Source of the DNA: Litorivivens lipolytica | Lineage (GTDB): Bacteria > Pseudomonadota > Gammaproteobacteria > Pseudomonadales > Spongiibacteraceae | Reading direction: 5' to 3' | Length of the DNA stretch: 64,000 nucleotides | NCBI RefSeq assembly: GCF_014191715.1 | Contig: NZ_JACHWY010000002.1 | Span: forward strand, 372,001 to 436,000 | Part shown: positions 30,693 through 37,570 of the stretch, piece after piece | Numbering within the stretch: the stretch's first letter is position 1 | How the letters are laid out: every line of letters begins with the position of its first letter | Position numbers and translations under genes: made by a program | Notes under the pieces: generated by a model | The model's input: only the letters and a program-made list of their open reading frames with translations | The model's database searches: none | What the model was told of the DNA's origin: nothing

Positions 30693-31376
30693 TCAAAAAA
30701 ACTTGCGGAATTCCACGCCGGTATCGGTGAGCCGCAATTCCATCTTGCCGCTCTTGCTACGAAACAGTGTGTCTTCCGGTGCGTAGCGAACCATCGCCAT
30801 GCTGTCGTTGAAGCCCGGTCGCAGCCAGTTGGCATTGAGCGAGTGCGGGGACGCTTTTTTGACCGCCGCGTGTACTGTTCCCCAAGCAGGTTCACTCTCT
30901 TTTCCCGTGTCGGCAAAGCAGGGGTTGCCCATTGCCAGCAGTGCGGCGCATGCAGCGGCGATCAGTTTTTGCTGTAGGCGCAGAAAGCGCGTCAGGGCTT
31001 TGAGGGTAATCGACCCACGTTTCAGCAGGACCATGCCGAGCGGGACGCGAGAGGCCTTATGTTGTTCCAGTGCGGCCTGCAATTCTTCTGGCTTAATCTG
31101 ACCTTCGGCAAGCAATAGGTCACCGAGTCGGCAATGTAGCTGTTCGACATTGTGTTGTTCCGGCGAACGCAGGTGGTCTTGTAGCTTCAGAAGGGCATTT
31201 TTTTCAAGCCGGTCTAGGCGCCGTTGACGCTGGAGTACCTGACACAGGGGGACATGATGTCGGCTGGCGATGCTTAGGGCAGACTGCAATTCCCGGCGCG
31301 AAATAAAGCCTCCGGCTACCAGCAGGTCACCAATGCGGCTGGGATCCGTCGAAGATGTCAGAGCATGGGGAAGCAT
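30693..31376 (-). CDS. Orphan MshEN (GspE N-terminal-like) protein
   Basis: 227-aa protein with no ATPase domain. Two GspE-N/MshEN-type domains: RIGDLLVAGGFISRRELQSA (~14) and RLGDLLLAEGQIKPEELQAA (~80) with the second motif RVPLGMVLLKRGSI. MshEN domains bind c-di-GMP in MshE and related ATPases through RLGxxL motifs; domain 2 keeps both motifs best. A hydrophobic helix (LIAAACAALLAM) follows, then an ~65-residue C-terminal part of unknown fold. The start at 31376 has GGAG 5 bases upstream. Standing alone, it could be a c-di-GMP-responsive adaptor for a distant system. Confidence 0.65.
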   Translation of the reverse strand: MLPHALTSSTDPSRIGDLLVAGGFISRRELQSALSIASRHHVPLCQVLQRQRRLDRLEKNALLKLQDHLRSPEQHNVEQLHCRLGDLLLAEGQIKPEELQAALEQHKASRVPLGMVLLKRGSITLKALTRFLRLQQKLIAAACAALLAMGNPCFADTGKESEPAWGTVHAAVKKASPHSLNANWLRPGFNDSMAMVRYAPEDTLFRSKSGKMELRLTDTGVEFRKFF

Positions 31377-31504
31377 GAGCTCTCCTGCGCACCGTCTGCG
31401 GGTTTGGGCAGTACAGTATTGGCAGGGAGGCGGGTGGTGAACAATACGTATAGCCCGCAATTGATTCGCTGTTCGGGCTCTACGGCGGGAGCTTTAAATC
31501 ACGC

Positions 31505-31993
31505 TCAGACGTAGTTCAATGGCAATGCCGGGCGGTCAACGACCTTGCGCATCACAAAGCTGGAATGCACCCCGGTTACGCCGGGGATGCGGGTGATGCG
31601 CTCCAGCAGCAGGGACTGATAGGCATCCATATCCGGCACAATCACCTGTAGCAGGTAATCTGCATCCTGCCCGGTAATTAGGTAGCAGGCTTGCACTTCC
31701 GGGTAGCCGGCGACGGTTTTCTCAAAGGTCTCGAAGCGGTCTGGCGTGTGGCGATCCATGCCGATCTGCACCATGGCGGTCAGGGTCAGGCCGAGCTTGC
31801 GGGCGTTGAGCACCGTGACCTTGCGCACGATGATGCCGGCCTCTTCCAGCAGTCGGACCCGGCGCAGACAGGGTGACGGCGACAATCCGACCCTGTCGGC
31901 CAGATCGGTGTTGCTGAGATCGCCGTTTTCTTGCAGCTGGGCGAGAATGCTGCGGTCAATTCTGTCGAGTTTGACTAAGCTCTTTTCTTCCAT
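31505..31993 (-). CDS. Lrp/AsnC family transcriptional regulator
   Basis: 162-aa regulator with an N-terminal HTH (LDRIDRSILAQLQENG...LADRVGLSPSPCLRRVRLLEEAGII) and the C-terminal RAM effector domain (TGQDADYLLQVIVPDMDAYQSLL). The family responds to amino acids, often leucine. Divergent from leuA and close to a leucine-type dehydrogenase and indolepyruvate oxidoreductase, so branched-chain or aromatic amino-acid control is likely. The chosen ATG gives normal family length; an upstream in-frame ATG at 32041 would run through the operator-like dyad. Confidence 0.9.
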   Translation of the reverse strand: MEEKSLVKLDRIDRSILAQLQENGDLSNTDLADRVGLSPSPCLRRVRLLEEAGIIVRKVTVLNARKLGLTLTAMVQIGMDRHTPDRFETFEKTVAGYPEVQACYLITGQDADYLLQVIVPDMDAYQSLLLERITRIPGVTGVHSSFVMRKVVDRPALPLNYV

Positions 31994-32001
31994 TGGTGTA
32001 A

Positions 32002-32052
32002 TATTCCAATATTTAGCTTTAGGCTGGAATAAATATCTCATATTGGCGCCAA
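32002..32052. promoter_or_regulatory. Dyad operators between lrp-like gene and leuA
   Basis: TATTCCA (32002-32008), 16 bases, TGGAATA (32025-32031); then a perfect 10-bp palindrome TTGGCGCCAA (32043-32052). They begin 9 bases upstream of the Lrp-like start. Likely autoregulatory sites that may also act on leuA. Confidence 0.5.
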
Positions 32053-32106
32053 ATAAAGCAACTTAGCAAGAAAATTGCGCGCGGAAGGGCGTAGAGTGGT
32101 CACCAT

Positions 32107-32227
32107 CTGACAGGGCAGGCACACCGGCGCGAACATCGCGAGTGTGGGCGCCGGGGCCAAAAGCCCTAAGCGCCACTGCCGCAGGTTTGCGGGCGGGGTG
32201 CTTTCCCACCGGAGAGTGCCCTGTCGG
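32107..32227 (+). ncRNA. Structured leader RNA upstream of leuA (unrecognised)
   Basis: A 121-base element closed by an 11-pair helix, 32107-32117 with 32217-32227 (CTGACAGGGCA / TGCCCTGTCGG, one G-U). Inside are four hairpins: CACAC/GTGTG plus CGCGA/TCGCG (32120-32146); GGCGC/GCGCC plus GGGGC/GCCCT with loop CAAAA (32147-32174); CCGCA/TGCGG (32179-32192); GGTG/CACC (32197-32210). A competing 7-pair helix CCGGCGC (32124-32130) / GCGCCGG (32148-32154) would break the first two. It ends 39 bases before the leuA start. I do not recognise a known riboswitch class. Confidence 0.55.
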
Positions 32228-32266
32228 TAAAGATCCCCTTAGCTAAAGAACCCGCTGGAGCTCGAC

Positions 32267-33922
32267 ATGTCTTTCGACCATCGCAAATACCGCCGCTTTG
32301 ACGTGCCTAACAAGCCCGACCGTCAGTGGCCTAATCACCGTATCGACAGCGCCCCGCGCTGGTGTGCGGTTGACCTGCGCGATGGTAACCAGGCGCTGGT
32401 CAAACCAATGAGTCCGGCGCAAAAGCAGCGCCTGTTTGACCTGCTGGTAAAGGTCGGCTGTAAAGAGATCGAAATCGGTTTCCCTTCGGCCTCGCAGCCC
32501 GATTTTGATTTCTGCCGCAAACTGATTGAGGAAAACCGTATTCCTGATGACGTGACTATTCAGGTACTGACTCAGGCTCGCCCCGAGCTGATTGAAAGAA
32601 GTTTTGAGGCGTTGAAAGGAGCGCGTCGCGCCATCGTGCATGTCTATAACTCCACCTCGGTGGTGCAGCGAGAGCAGGTGTTTTCGATGGATAAGGCCGG
32701 CATCAAACAGATCGCGGTTAGCGGCGCCCAGCTGGTCAAAGATGAAGCCGCTAAGTATCCCGCGACGGAATGGGTCTTCCAGTATTCGCCGGAGAGTTTT
32801 ACCGGAACCGAAACCGATTATGCGATTGAAGTGATCGACGCGGTCAATGCGGTGTGGCAACCGGAAAACGGGCAGGAAGTCATTATCAACCTCCCGGCCA
32901 CGGTGGAAATGTCCAGTCCCAATGTCTTTGCGGATCAGGTGGAAACGGTTTGCGAAGGCATCAAACATCGCGAGCATCTCACCATTAGTCTTCACACCCA
33001 CAATGACCGTGGCTGTGCAGTGGCAGCGGCCGAGCTAGGTGTGATGGCCGGTGCCGACCGTATTGAGGGCACGCTGATGGGTAACGGCGAGCGCACCGGC
33101 AATATGGATCTGATCACCATGGCCATGAATCTGTATTCCCAAGGGATCGATCCCAAACTGAATTTTGAAAACATGGCGGAGATTCGCGAGGTGGTGGAGA
33201 GCTGCACCGATATCGCGACCCACCCGCGCCACCCCTATGTAGGCGAGCTGGTCTTTACTGCTTTCTCCGGCAGTCATCAGGATGCTATCCGCAAATGTCT
33301 GGTGCGGCGCGAGGAGGGGGATATCTGGAATGTGGCCTATCTGCCCATCGACCCTCACGATCTTGGGCGTCGCTACGAAGAAGTGGTGCGCATCAACAGT
33401 CAGTCCGGCAAGGGCGGTGTGGCGCATGTACTCGAGCGCGACTACAACATTGATCTGCCGCGTTGGCTGCAGCAGGAGTTTTCGCGTTTGGTGCAGAAGG
33501 CCGCGGAAGATCAGGGCGGAGAAATCGATTCACTGACGATTCGCCGTCTGTTTGACGAGCATTATCTGGCGGTGGCCGAGGGGTGGCAGCTGGAAAACTA
33601 CGATCTGCATCGAAGTGACAGCGGCGTCTCTGCGAAGGTCATTGCCGGTGGTTGCGAATTCAGTGGTGTGGCCCAGGGCGTCCTTGAAGCGGTTGTGCAG
33701 GCGGTCAGCGCCCAGACCGGTGCCAGTATTGATATCGATGAATACAACGAGTTTGCGGTTGAGTGGGGGACGCATGCCAGTGCGCTGGCCTGTATTCGTG
33801 CAGATATCGACGGCCAAAGTTTTTCTGCGGCCTCTCTGGGTGAAGATACGACCTCGGCCATGCTGCAGGCGCTGTTGTCGGTGGTGGGCCAACAGCAGAA
33901 GGTAGCGCAGCGCGCCGCTTAG
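32267..33922 (+). CDS. leuA: 2-isopropylmalate synthase
   Basis: First committed enzyme of leucine synthesis (acetyl-CoA + 2-oxoisovalerate). 551 aa, the longer LeuA form found in Pseudomonas and actinobacteria. The TIM-barrel catalytic domain starts at WCAVDLRDGNQALVKPM (metal-binding Asp). Metal His residues lie in SLHTHNDRG, and a C-terminal regulatory domain (~430-551) is expected to bind leucine for feedback. GGAG lies 6 bases before the ATG. A structured leader and an Lrp-like gene sit upstream; a terminator follows. leuB/C/D are not adjacent. Confidence 0.97.
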   Translation: MSFDHRKYRRFDVPNKPDRQWPNHRIDSAPRWCAVDLRDGNQALVKPMSPAQKQRLFDLLVKVGCKEIEIGFPSASQPDFDFCRKLIEENRIPDDVTIQVLTQARPELIERSFEALKGARRAIVHVYNSTSVVQREQVFSMDKAGIKQIAVSGAQLVKDEAAKYPATEWVFQYSPESFTGTETDYAIEVIDAVNAVWQPENGQEVIINLPATVEMSSPNVFADQVETVCEGIKHREHLTISLHTHNDRGCAVAAAELGVMAGADRIEGTLMGNGERTGNMDLITMAMNLYSQGIDPKLNFENMAEIREVVESCTDIATHPRHPYVGELVFTAFSGSHQDAIRKCLVRREEGDIWNVAYLPIDPHDLGRRYEEVVRINSQSGKGGVAHVLERDYNIDLPRWLQQEFSRLVQKAAEDQGGEIDSLTIRRLFDEHYLAVAEGWQLENYDLHRSDSGVSAKVIAGGCEFSGVAQGVLEAVVQAVSAQTGASIDIDEYNEFAVEWGTHASALACIRADIDGQSFSAASLGEDTTSAMLQALLSVVGQQQKVAQRAA

Positions 33923-34096: not shown

Positions 34097-37000
34097 ATGA
34101 CCCAACGCAAGATTTCTCTCGACGACAAGTATGCCCTCGATACGACCCGCGCCTACCTGACCGGCATTGAGGCTCTGGTGCGGCTGCCGATACTGCAGCA
34201 CCAGCGGGATCTGGAGGCGGGTTTGCATACGGCCGGCTTTATTTCCGGGTATCGGGGGTCGCCGCTTGGCGGGGTGGATCAGGCCTTGTGGAAGGCCGGC
34301 AAATACCTCGACAAGCACAACATCACCTTTCAGCCCGGGGTTAATGAAGACCTTGCCGCCACTGCCGTGTGGGGCAGTCAGCAGGTGGGGCTCTTTCCCG
34401 GTGCCAAATACGATGGCGTGTTCGGCATGTGGTATGGCAAGGGGCCGGGGGTGGATCGCAGCATGGATGTGATCAAACACGCCAACGCGGCCGGTACCGC
34501 CAAATTCGGCGGCGTGCTGGCCGTTGCGGGTGACGACCATGCGGCCAAATCCTCAACCTTGCCCCATCAGTCCGAACATATGTTTATGGGTGCCTCCATG
34601 CCCGTGCTGGCGCCGGCCAATGTTCAGGAAGTGCTCGACCTCGGTATTTATGGCTGGGAGCTGTCGCGTTATAGCGGCTGTTGGGTTGGTCTGAAAGCTA
34701 TTACCGAAAACATGGATTCGGCCATCTCTGCGGAGATTGATCCGCACCGCATCAATATCGTGATTCCCGATCAATTCGAACTCCCGTCTGATGGTGTGCA
34801 TATCCGCCACCCGGATAACGCACTGGATCAGGAGCGGCGGCTAAACAAATTCAAGATTTACGCGGCGCGGGAGTTTGCGCGCGTTAACAACCTGAATCGC
34901 ACCGTTATCGATAGCCCCAAGGCGCGTCTCGGCATCATTACCAGCGGCAAGAGCTACCTGGATGTGTTACAGGCTTTGGAAGATCTCGGCATTGATCAGC
35001 GCAAGGCTGCCGATATCGGGCTACGGGTGTTTAAGGTGGGTATGCCCTGGCCGCTGGAGCCCGTCGCCACGCACGCCTTTGCAGATGGGCTGGAAGAGAT
35101 TCTGGTGGTGGAAGAGAAACGCTCCATTATTGAAGATCAGCTGACAGGGCAGCTATACAACTGGCCGGTGGATCGCCGACCCCGTGTGATCGGCGAGTTC
35201 GACGAGCAGGGCAAGGATCTATTGCCCAACCTGAGTGAGCTGACACCGGCGATGGTGGCCCGCGCCATTGCTTCGCGAATCCGCCGCTTCTATCAGAGCG
35301 AGGAAATTGAAAAACGCCTGAGTTTCTACAACCAGAAAGAGCAGTCCTTGGCCAGCAAGCGCAACAAGATCGCGCGCTTGCCTCATTACTGTTCGGGTTG
35401 CCCGCATAACACTTCGACGCAGGTGCCGGAAGGCAGTCAAGCCATGGGCGGGATTGGCTGTCACTACATGAGCACCTTTATGGAAAGTCGTCCGGCCAAG
35501 ACCTTTACCCAAATGGGCGGCGAAGGGGTGACCTGGGTGGGGCAGGCCCATTTCACGGACAACAAACACATCTTTCAAAACCTTGGCGACGGCACCTATT
35601 TCCACTCGGGTTTGCTGGCCATTCGTCAGGCGGTCGCCTCCGGCGTCAATATCACCTACAAACTGCTCTATAACGATGCGGTCGCGATGACCGGAGGCCA
35701 GCCGGTCGACGGCTCGCTCAGTGTCGAGCAGATTATTTTGCAGCTGCGCGGTGAAGGGGTGAAGCGTATTGCGGTGGTATCGGATGCCCCCGAGAAATTT
35801 AACTTCAAAAAAGAAGACGACGTCAGTCTCGACCACCGCGATCGTTTGATGGCGGTGCAGAAGGAGCTGCGGGAAATCCCCGGTACCACGGTTCTGATCT
35901 ACGAACAGACATGTGCCGCGGAAAAACGTCGTCGCCGTAAAAAAGGGCTGATGGAGGATCCGAATCGCCGCATTTTTATCAATCCGGCGGTCTGTGAGGG
36001 CTGCGGCGATTGTGGCAAGAAATCCAATTGCTTGTCTGTGATCCCGAAAGAAACCGAGCTGGGTCGCAAGCGTCAGATCGATCAGAGTGCCTGCAATAAA
36101 GATTATTCCTGTGTTGAGGGTTTTTGCCCGAGCTTTGTCTCTGTGATTGGCGGTACTCCGCGCAAAAACAAGGCGGCCAGTGGCGTTACCGAATTCGCAG
36201 CCCTGCCCGAGCCGGTACATCCTGCGCTGGATCAGCCCTGGAATATCGTGGTCACCGGCGTGGGGGGGACGGGCGTGCTCACCGTTACCGCCGTTCTGGC
36301 AATGGCGGCACACATTGAAGGCAAGGGCTGCGCCACCATGAACCAGACGGGCTTGGCACAAAAGTTTGGTCCGGTGGTAAGCCACTTGCGTGTGGCAGCC
36401 AAGCAGGACGATATCAATGCGGTGCGGATTCCCGCGGGTGATGCGGATCTCTTGCTGGGCTGCGATCTGGTGGTAAGTACCAACGATGAGGCCATTGCCA
36501 AGGTCAATGTCGAGCGCTCCTACGCCGTGATCAACGAAACCGAAGCGCCGACGGCCGAGTTTGTCTACAACCCGGATGCCCAGTTCCCGATGGACTCCAT
36601 GAAACGCATCATCGTGGAAGAAGTGGGTGAGGGTAAGGTCGACTTTATCGAAGCCACAGATATCGCTACGCACCTGTTGGGCGATGCGGTAGCCACCAAC
36701 TTTTTCATGCTCGGTCACGCTTATCAGAAGGGCTATATCCCGGTTAGCGCAGAAGCTATTGATGAAGCCATTGCCCTGAACGGTGTTGCGATTGAGTTCA
36801 ATCGTCAGGCCTTCGTGTGGGGACGCCGCTGTGTGGTAGATAAAGAATCGGTCAAGAAACTCGCAGGCGTCGGCAAAACCCACTGGGAGCCGCTGGAATC
36901 ACTGGACGAGATAGTGGCGTTTCGAGTCGACCATCTGACCAAGTATCAGGATGAAGCCTATGCCCGTCGTTATCGTGAGCGAGTGGAGCAGGTGCGCGCA

Positions 37001-37570
37001 GTGGAAGAAACGCTGGATGCCACTGGCGAGCTGAAATTCACTAAGGCGATTGCCAAAGCCCTGCATAAACTGATGGCTTACAAGGATGAATACGAAGTTG
37101 CCCGTCTGTTTAGCGACTCGGCCTTTACCGATGCATTGACTGAAACTTTTGAAGGTGACATGAAATTGCAGTTCCACATGGCACCGCCAATCTTGTCAAA
37201 AATCGACCCCGATACAGGCTTGCCCAAAAAACGTGTCTTTGGTGGCTGGATGCTGCCGATGTTCCGTGTGCTCGCGCGATTTAAAAACCTGCGTGGCACG
37301 CGCTGGGATATTTTCGGCTACAGCGCTGAGCGGAAAACCGAGCGCGCCTTGATAGGCGAGTTTGAAAACACGCTGGACACCATGCTGCCAAAACTGACCG
37401 CAGCCAAGTTGCCGTTGGCTATTGAATGTGCCGAATTGGTGCAGTCCATTCGTGGCTTTGGCCATGTAAAAGACGCAGCAATTGCGCAGTACCGCGAGCG
37501 TGACAAGGTATTGGCCCAACGCTTTGACGACAACGTCGTGCAAATCGTCGAGATAGAGTCTGCTGCTTAA
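34097..37570 (+). CDS. Indolepyruvate ferredoxin oxidoreductase, fused alpha-beta
   Basis: 1157-aa 2-oxoacid:ferredoxin oxidoreductase that converts aryl- or branched pyruvates plus CoA to acyl-CoA, CO2 and reduced ferredoxin. N-terminal pyrimidine-binding domain (TAGFISGYRGSPLGGVD), TPP domain with CSGCPHNTSTQVPEGSQ (~430) and GGEGVTWVGQA, a cysteine-rich Fe-S segment (CEGCGDCGKKSNCLSV and CNKDYSCVEGFC, ~635-680), then the gamma-type domain (VVTGVGGTGVLTVTAVL, ~715) and a C-terminal extension. The single-chain aerobic form is typical of proteobacteria. The leucine-type dehydrogenase 18 bases downstream would supply 2-oxoacids. Confidence 0.93.
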   Translation: MTQRKISLDDKYALDTTRAYLTGIEALVRLPILQHQRDLEAGLHTAGFISGYRGSPLGGVDQALWKAGKYLDKHNITFQPGVNEDLAATAVWGSQQVGLFPGAKYDGVFGMWYGKGPGVDRSMDVIKHANAAGTAKFGGVLAVAGDDHAAKSSTLPHQSEHMFMGASMPVLAPANVQEVLDLGIYGWELSRYSGCWVGLKAITENMDSAISAEIDPHRINIVIPDQFELPSDGVHIRHPDNALDQERRLNKFKIYAAREFARVNNLNRTVIDSPKARLGIITSGKSYLDVLQALEDLGIDQRKAADIGLRVFKVGMPWPLEPVATHAFADGLEEILVVEEKRSIIEDQLTGQLYNWPVDRRPRVIGEFDEQGKDLLPNLSELTPAMVARAIASRIRRFYQSEEIEKRLSFYNQKEQSLASKRNKIARLPHYCSGCPHNTSTQVPEGSQAMGGIGCHYMSTFMESRPAKTFTQMGGEGVTWVGQAHFTDNKHIFQNLGDGTYFHSGLLAIRQAVASGVNITYKLLYNDAVAMTGGQPVDGSLSVEQIILQLRGEGVKRIAVVSDAPEKFNFKKEDDVSLDHRDRLMAVQKELREIPGTTVLIYEQTCAAEKRRRRKKGLMEDPNRRIFINPAVCEGCGDCGKKSNCLSVIPKETELGRKRQIDQSACNKDYSCVEGFCPSFVSVIGGTPRKNKAASGVTEFAALPEPVHPALDQPWNIVVTGVGGTGVLTVTAVLAMAAHIEGKGCATMNQTGLAQKFGPVVSHLRVAAKQDDINAVRIPAGDADLLLGCDLVVSTNDEAIAKVNVERSYAVINETEAPTAEFVYNPDAQFPMDSMKRIIVEEVGEGKVDFIEATDIATHLLGDAVATNFFMLGHAYQKGYIPVSAEAIDEAIALNGVAIEFNRQAFVWGRRCVVDKESVKKLAGVGKTHWEPLESLDEIVAFRVDHLTKYQDEAYARRYRERVEQVRAVEETLDATGELKFTKAIAKALHKLMAYKDEYEVARLFSDSAFTDALTETFEGDMKLQFHMAPPILSKIDPDTGLPKKRVFGGWMLPMFRVLARFKNLRGTRWDIFGYSAERKTERALIGEFENTLDTMLPKLTAAKLPLAIECAELVQSIRGFGHVKDAAIAQYRERDKVLAQRFDDNVVQIVEIESAA

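Follow-up and report, generated by a model that had tools for sequence, protein, structure and literature searches.

A structured leuA leader in Litorivivens lipolytica as a candidate divergent member of a proposed leuA/ilvI leader RNA class

The 121-nt segment at 32107-32227 of the window, the 64-kb stretch of Litorivivens lipolytica DNA analyzed here, is predicted to fold into a stable multibranched RNA directly upstream of leuA. We consider the chances even that this segment represents the transcribed leuA leader and a cis-regulatory RNA, belonging as a divergent member to a previously ungrouped class of leuA/ilvI leaders in its order of gammaproteobacteria. The computations established the fold, the presence of competing helices, the enrichment of particular loop hairpins in leuA leaders, and the near restriction of these hairpins to leuA and ilvI. 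A literature search found no description of a leuA leader of this kind.

The leuA gene, encoding 2-isopropylmalate synthase, occupies 32267-33922 on the plus strand, as do all features below unless stated otherwise. Its product matches LeuA-type proteins in relatives, the closest being that of the Spongiibacteraceae MAG UBA5047 (84% identity). The other boundary of the upstream spacer is a divergent gene on the minus strand (31505-32041, start codon uncertain), judged by eye to encode an Lrp/AsnC-like regulator. The sequence TAGAGT at 32092-32097 is probably the leuA -10 box, as its position matches the TANACT boxes of relatives, and it places the expected start site near 32104. A consensus scan of 31900-32400 picked up no promoter, the TAGAGT box included. 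An inverted repeat, GCAA-N5-TTGC (32066-32078), overlaps the -35 region just upstream of the -10 box, and similar GCAA/TTGC repeats precede leuA in many relatives. From its sequence, the repeat is likely to be an operator, perhaps serving the divergent Lrp/AsnC-type regulator. A probable Shine-Dalgarno sequence, GGAG, lies at 32257-32260, and the structured segment begins approximately 3 nt past the predicted start site.

The minimum free energy (MFE) fold of 32107-32227 has an energy of -68.5 kcal/mol, compared to -53.2 +/- 3.6 kcal/mol for dinucleotide shuffles (z -4.2; 0 of 200 shuffles as good). None of 3,182 other 121-nt windows, sampled from either strand of the 64 kb, was as stable; since only 6 of these matched the high GC content of the leader (70%), the shuffle result weighs more. 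This supports the structured leader RNA proposed in an earlier note on this DNA, as do the structured leuA leaders of relatives. The 11-pair closing helix described there, enclosing four internal hairpins, is also present. All 11 pairs between 32107-32117 and 32217-32227 are standard on reading the sequence, with one U-G, and the MFE fold retains 10 of them together with four hairpins. The best 5'-to-3' helix of the leader was equalled in 2 of 100 of its own shuffles. The first internal hairpin (32120-32146) consists of CACAC/GUGUG with an inner stem. The second (32147-32174), which we term the T1 arm, has an outer stem GGCGC/GCGCC, an inner stem GGGG/CCCU and a 7-nt loop, CCAAAAG (32157-32163), whose pattern is common to relatives. 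These are followed by a third hairpin (32176-32196) and by a T2-like hairpin, CUUUC[CCACCG]GAGAG (32200-32217).

The closing helix is not the dominant fold at every transcript length. A local hairpin of 15 predicted pairs (32192-32206 with 32211-32225) occupies the 3' strand of the closing helix (32217-32227) and excludes it. For transcripts taken from 32104, the closed form is favored at ends 32227-32228. At ends of 32234 and beyond the local hairpin usually wins, with a probability of about 0.7 versus about 0.25-0.3 for the closing helix at ends 32240 and 32266; the exception is end 32282, where the closed form mostly prevails. The 7-pair GC helix of the earlier note, CCGGCGC/GCGCCGG (32124-32130 with 32148-32154), was found with all 7 pairs G-C. 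It has a probability of about 0.14 in the full leader and is favored in several shorter transcripts. Mutually exclusive helices can form according to these folding figures, which are purely thermodynamic predictions. The GGAG Shine-Dalgarno sequence is predicted to lie outside the local hairpin as well as the closing helix.

Long, structured leuA leaders are also found in Saccharospirillum, Hahella, Alcanivorax, Ketobacter, Pseudomaricurvus, Spongiibacter and Aeromonas. An unbiased tally of loop 5-mers over 115 non-redundant leuA upstream regions placed UUACC (31), UACCC (30), CACAA (19) and CUACC (16) among the leading words, while the best word of any of 20 shuffles reached only 7-11; the leader words were also far above the antisense strand. 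We denote hairpins with a YCANRAG loop as T1, those with a YUACC(N)G loop as T2, and those with loops like ANCACCCC as T3. Strict T1/T2 patterns gave 61 hairpins, compared to an average of 1.4 (maximum 3) in shuffles and 1 on the antisense strand, a count that is a description and not a test because the patterns were derived from the same leaders. Fairer controls for the enrichment come from the tally of words, from the antisense strand and, as described below, from leuC and a genome scan. The enrichment extends across the order of the window genome and to Aeromonas. Strict-pattern hairpins occur in 50 of the 115 leuA leaders; the 65 leaders that have none, and the short leuA leaders of Marinobacter, count against the class. 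Between genera the conserved hairpins differ in number, order and spacing, and, given the differing order, an attempt to align the leaders of all genera in one piece was abandoned. The conserved loop letters sit on changing stems, although counts of stem changes are biased by the selection of hairpins for two inner pairs. A test for over-representation of GGUA or CUUGUG, words with which the loops could pair, gave no support.

The leuA leader of the bacterial family f41 is a clear example: its closing helices, GGCUG/CAGCC and CACCUGU/GCAGGUG, are accompanied by one UUACC and one YCANRAG arm. Across 17 sequences, trimmed on both sides to the outer closing helix and so biased towards it, 96.9% of cells pair, whereas slid controls are 32-40% paired. 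Seven pairs change on both sides, so that the covariation for which the earlier note had proposed to test related leuA leaders is seen in this family. The f41 covariance model (R2) detects five held-out f41 leaders (E 1e-7 to 4e-4) and gave no match to the window up to E 10, placing the window outside this narrower leader family.

Of the hairpins of the wider class, the window has a good T1 arm and a second arm that is T2-like. The hairpin CGGGG[CCAAAAG]CCCUA has the T1 loop of the proposed leuA/ilvI class on 4 pairs, and its plan of outer stem, internal loop, short inner stem and 7-nt loop is that of Alcanivorax. It is the top match in the 64 kb to a T1-arm model from whose construction the window genus was left out, though a weak one (E 0.14). 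Only two T1 hairpins with at least 4 pairs exist on both strands of the 64 kb, and one of them is this arm. Used as a whole-genome search, the T1-arm model matched 12 of 391 genomes, training members included, and was set aside as insufficiently specific. The T2-like hairpin only approximates YUACCG, with C where the pattern has U, and the pattern was widened to admit it. Within the genus, the comparison comprises the window leader and one other. This sister leader keeps the T1 loop as CCACAAG on a different stem; its counterpart of the closing helix comprises 7 pairs and is surpassed by another helix of that leader. A DNA similarity search found no homologue of the leader, the sister genome matching at the gene start only. 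We weighed the position of the leader directly at the predicted start site, the T1 plan, the T1 loop of the sister and the ilvI leader of the window genome itself against the f41 model miss, the T1 E-value, the approximate T2 loop and the weak sister closing helix, and regard membership in the loop-hairpin class as likely.

The hairpins recur at one further gene of branched-chain amino acid synthesis. T1/T2-type hairpins were found upstream of ilvI in 17 of 30 genomes, while upstream regions of leuC in 30 genomes gave two marginal matches. A scan of a relative of the window genome (G015), covering 2.0 of 3.5 Mb with crude ORF calls, returned five sense matches upstream of an ORF at a distance of 400 nt or less. 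Two of them belong to leuA and one to ilvI; of the remaining two, one is part of a terminator, its stem being followed by a T run, and the other precedes an ORF of doubtful status. Within the scanned 2.0 Mb, convincing loop hairpins are restricted to leuA and ilvI. The family of the window genome has a conserved ilvI leader, in which an orthologous hairpin bears the loop UUAUCC, UACCCC or ACACCCC depending on the genome, ACACCCC being that of the window genome. We treat T2 and T3 as equivalent because of this exchange of loops; T1 is grouped with them solely by its co-occurrence with them in leaders. One ilvI leader corresponds to the Rfam family ilvB-OMG (RF02919), whose consensus includes UACC-loop hairpins. 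Like the window leader, ilvB-OMG is a structured RNA upstream of a branched-chain amino acid gene, and it comes from related gammaproteobacteria. It differs in preceding ilvB/ilvI and not leuA, and its model gave no match in 31000-33500 of the window.

In the mechanism we favor, a leucine-linked trans-acting factor, probably a protein, would read the loops of the T1 and T2/T3 hairpins. Its binding would shift the balance between two RNA forms, the closed multibranched one and the one with the local hairpin, and this shift would alter the amount of full-length or translatable leuA mRNA. We infer the binding, the reporting of leucine status and the output. A working analogy is the operator of E. 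coli thrS, a leader with small hairpins whose 7-nt loops are read by a pathway-linked protein; the analogy is not meant to extend to the mimicry of a tRNA anticodon arm, which is a feature of the thrS loops. The output may vary by lineage, since hairpins resembling intrinsic terminators, recognized by eye, precede leuA in some leaders of Alcanivorax and Spongiibacter, and none was found upstream of leuA in the window.

Alternatively, the RNA itself could bind leucine or a pathway intermediate and switch between the closed and local-hairpin forms. The two nearly equal, mutually exclusive folds and the multibranched f41 leader with its conserved loops would suit such a riboswitch. We nevertheless judge this unlikely, as the conserved parts vary between genera in number, order and spacing and Aeromonas leaders hold T2-type hairpins only. 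In addition, no riboswitch matched in Rfam. A cmscan of 31000-33500 gave no match to any family, ilvB-OMG included, up to E 5, consistent with the view of the earlier note that no recognized class applies, and searches of 16 loci and 8 more gave no match before leuA. A trans-acting factor common to these leaders would explain the variation in hairpins and their recurrence at ilvI no less well than a single small-molecule aptamer. It is similarly improbable that the structured 5' end merely protects or stabilizes leuA mRNA without any sensing. A stable fold that starts at the predicted 5' end is what protection would predict, but protection requires neither conserved loops on changing stems nor hairpins that ilvI shares and leuC lacks.

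In this pathway there are precedents for attenuation by ribosomes translating a short upstream ORF with many branched-chain codons. Such attenuation has been proposed for ilvB-OMG, where function is unproven (PMC10272879), and leuA of Shewanella has a leader peptide attenuator (PMC2659441). The Leu leader attenuator (RF00512), with which the Shewanella leuA leader is grouped here, resembles the window in lying upstream of leuA and in having alternative helices, but differs in its leucine-coding leader peptide and T-run terminator. As the earlier note had stated, the window has neither: the leader contains no ATG-started upstream ORF, its GTG- and TTG-started ones have no Leu runs, and the scan of 31900-32400 found no intrinsic terminator before leuA. 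Across the leuA leaders, the Leu content of upstream ORFs equals that of shuffled sequences, and the spacing of hairpins keeps no frame (only 5 spacings were countable). We therefore think attenuation of this type very unlikely for the window. A chance fold of a GC-rich spacer, with the hairpin likeness chosen post hoc, would be in keeping with the 70% GC, the f41 model miss and the approximate T1 and T2 matches, but has equally little probability given the z of -4.2 against dinucleotide shuffles, the placement here of one of only two T1 hairpins of at least 4 pairs on both strands of the 64 kb, and the sister genome keeping the T1 loop on a changed stem.

Extending the factor-based reading beyond the window, the leuA and ilvI mRNAs of this group of gammaproteobacteria might form one post-initiation regulon, controlled by a leucine-linked factor that reads their common loops, of which ilvB-OMG would be the only part described to date. 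We offer this tentatively and rate it below an even chance. If true, the published, unexplained ilvB-OMG motif would be linked with leuA leaders that have not been described before, and a factor reading YUACC and YCANRAG loops would become a concrete search target. It would also add a further form of control to branched-chain synthesis, besides leader peptides, T-boxes and Lrp.

Several observations were made alongside this analysis. The ilvI leader of the window family (L221 in the window genome, G000:C3; L369-L384) is a strongly conserved structured RNA with a ACACAUGACCUGUGUUGCGAGA core, to which the ilvB-OMG model gave no match. LeuA of the window genus is approximately 70-72% identical to LeuA of Marinobacter, Hahella and Saccharospirillum, compared to approximately 59% within its own family, a pattern that may reflect gene transfer. 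In the sister genome, a REP-like hairpin (TTCGCGAGCAGGGCTCGCTCCCAC) lies between the leader structure and leuA (L004). Downstream of leuA in the window, a 1157-aa ORF at 34097-37570 reads, by eye, like an indolepyruvate ferredoxin oxidoreductase.
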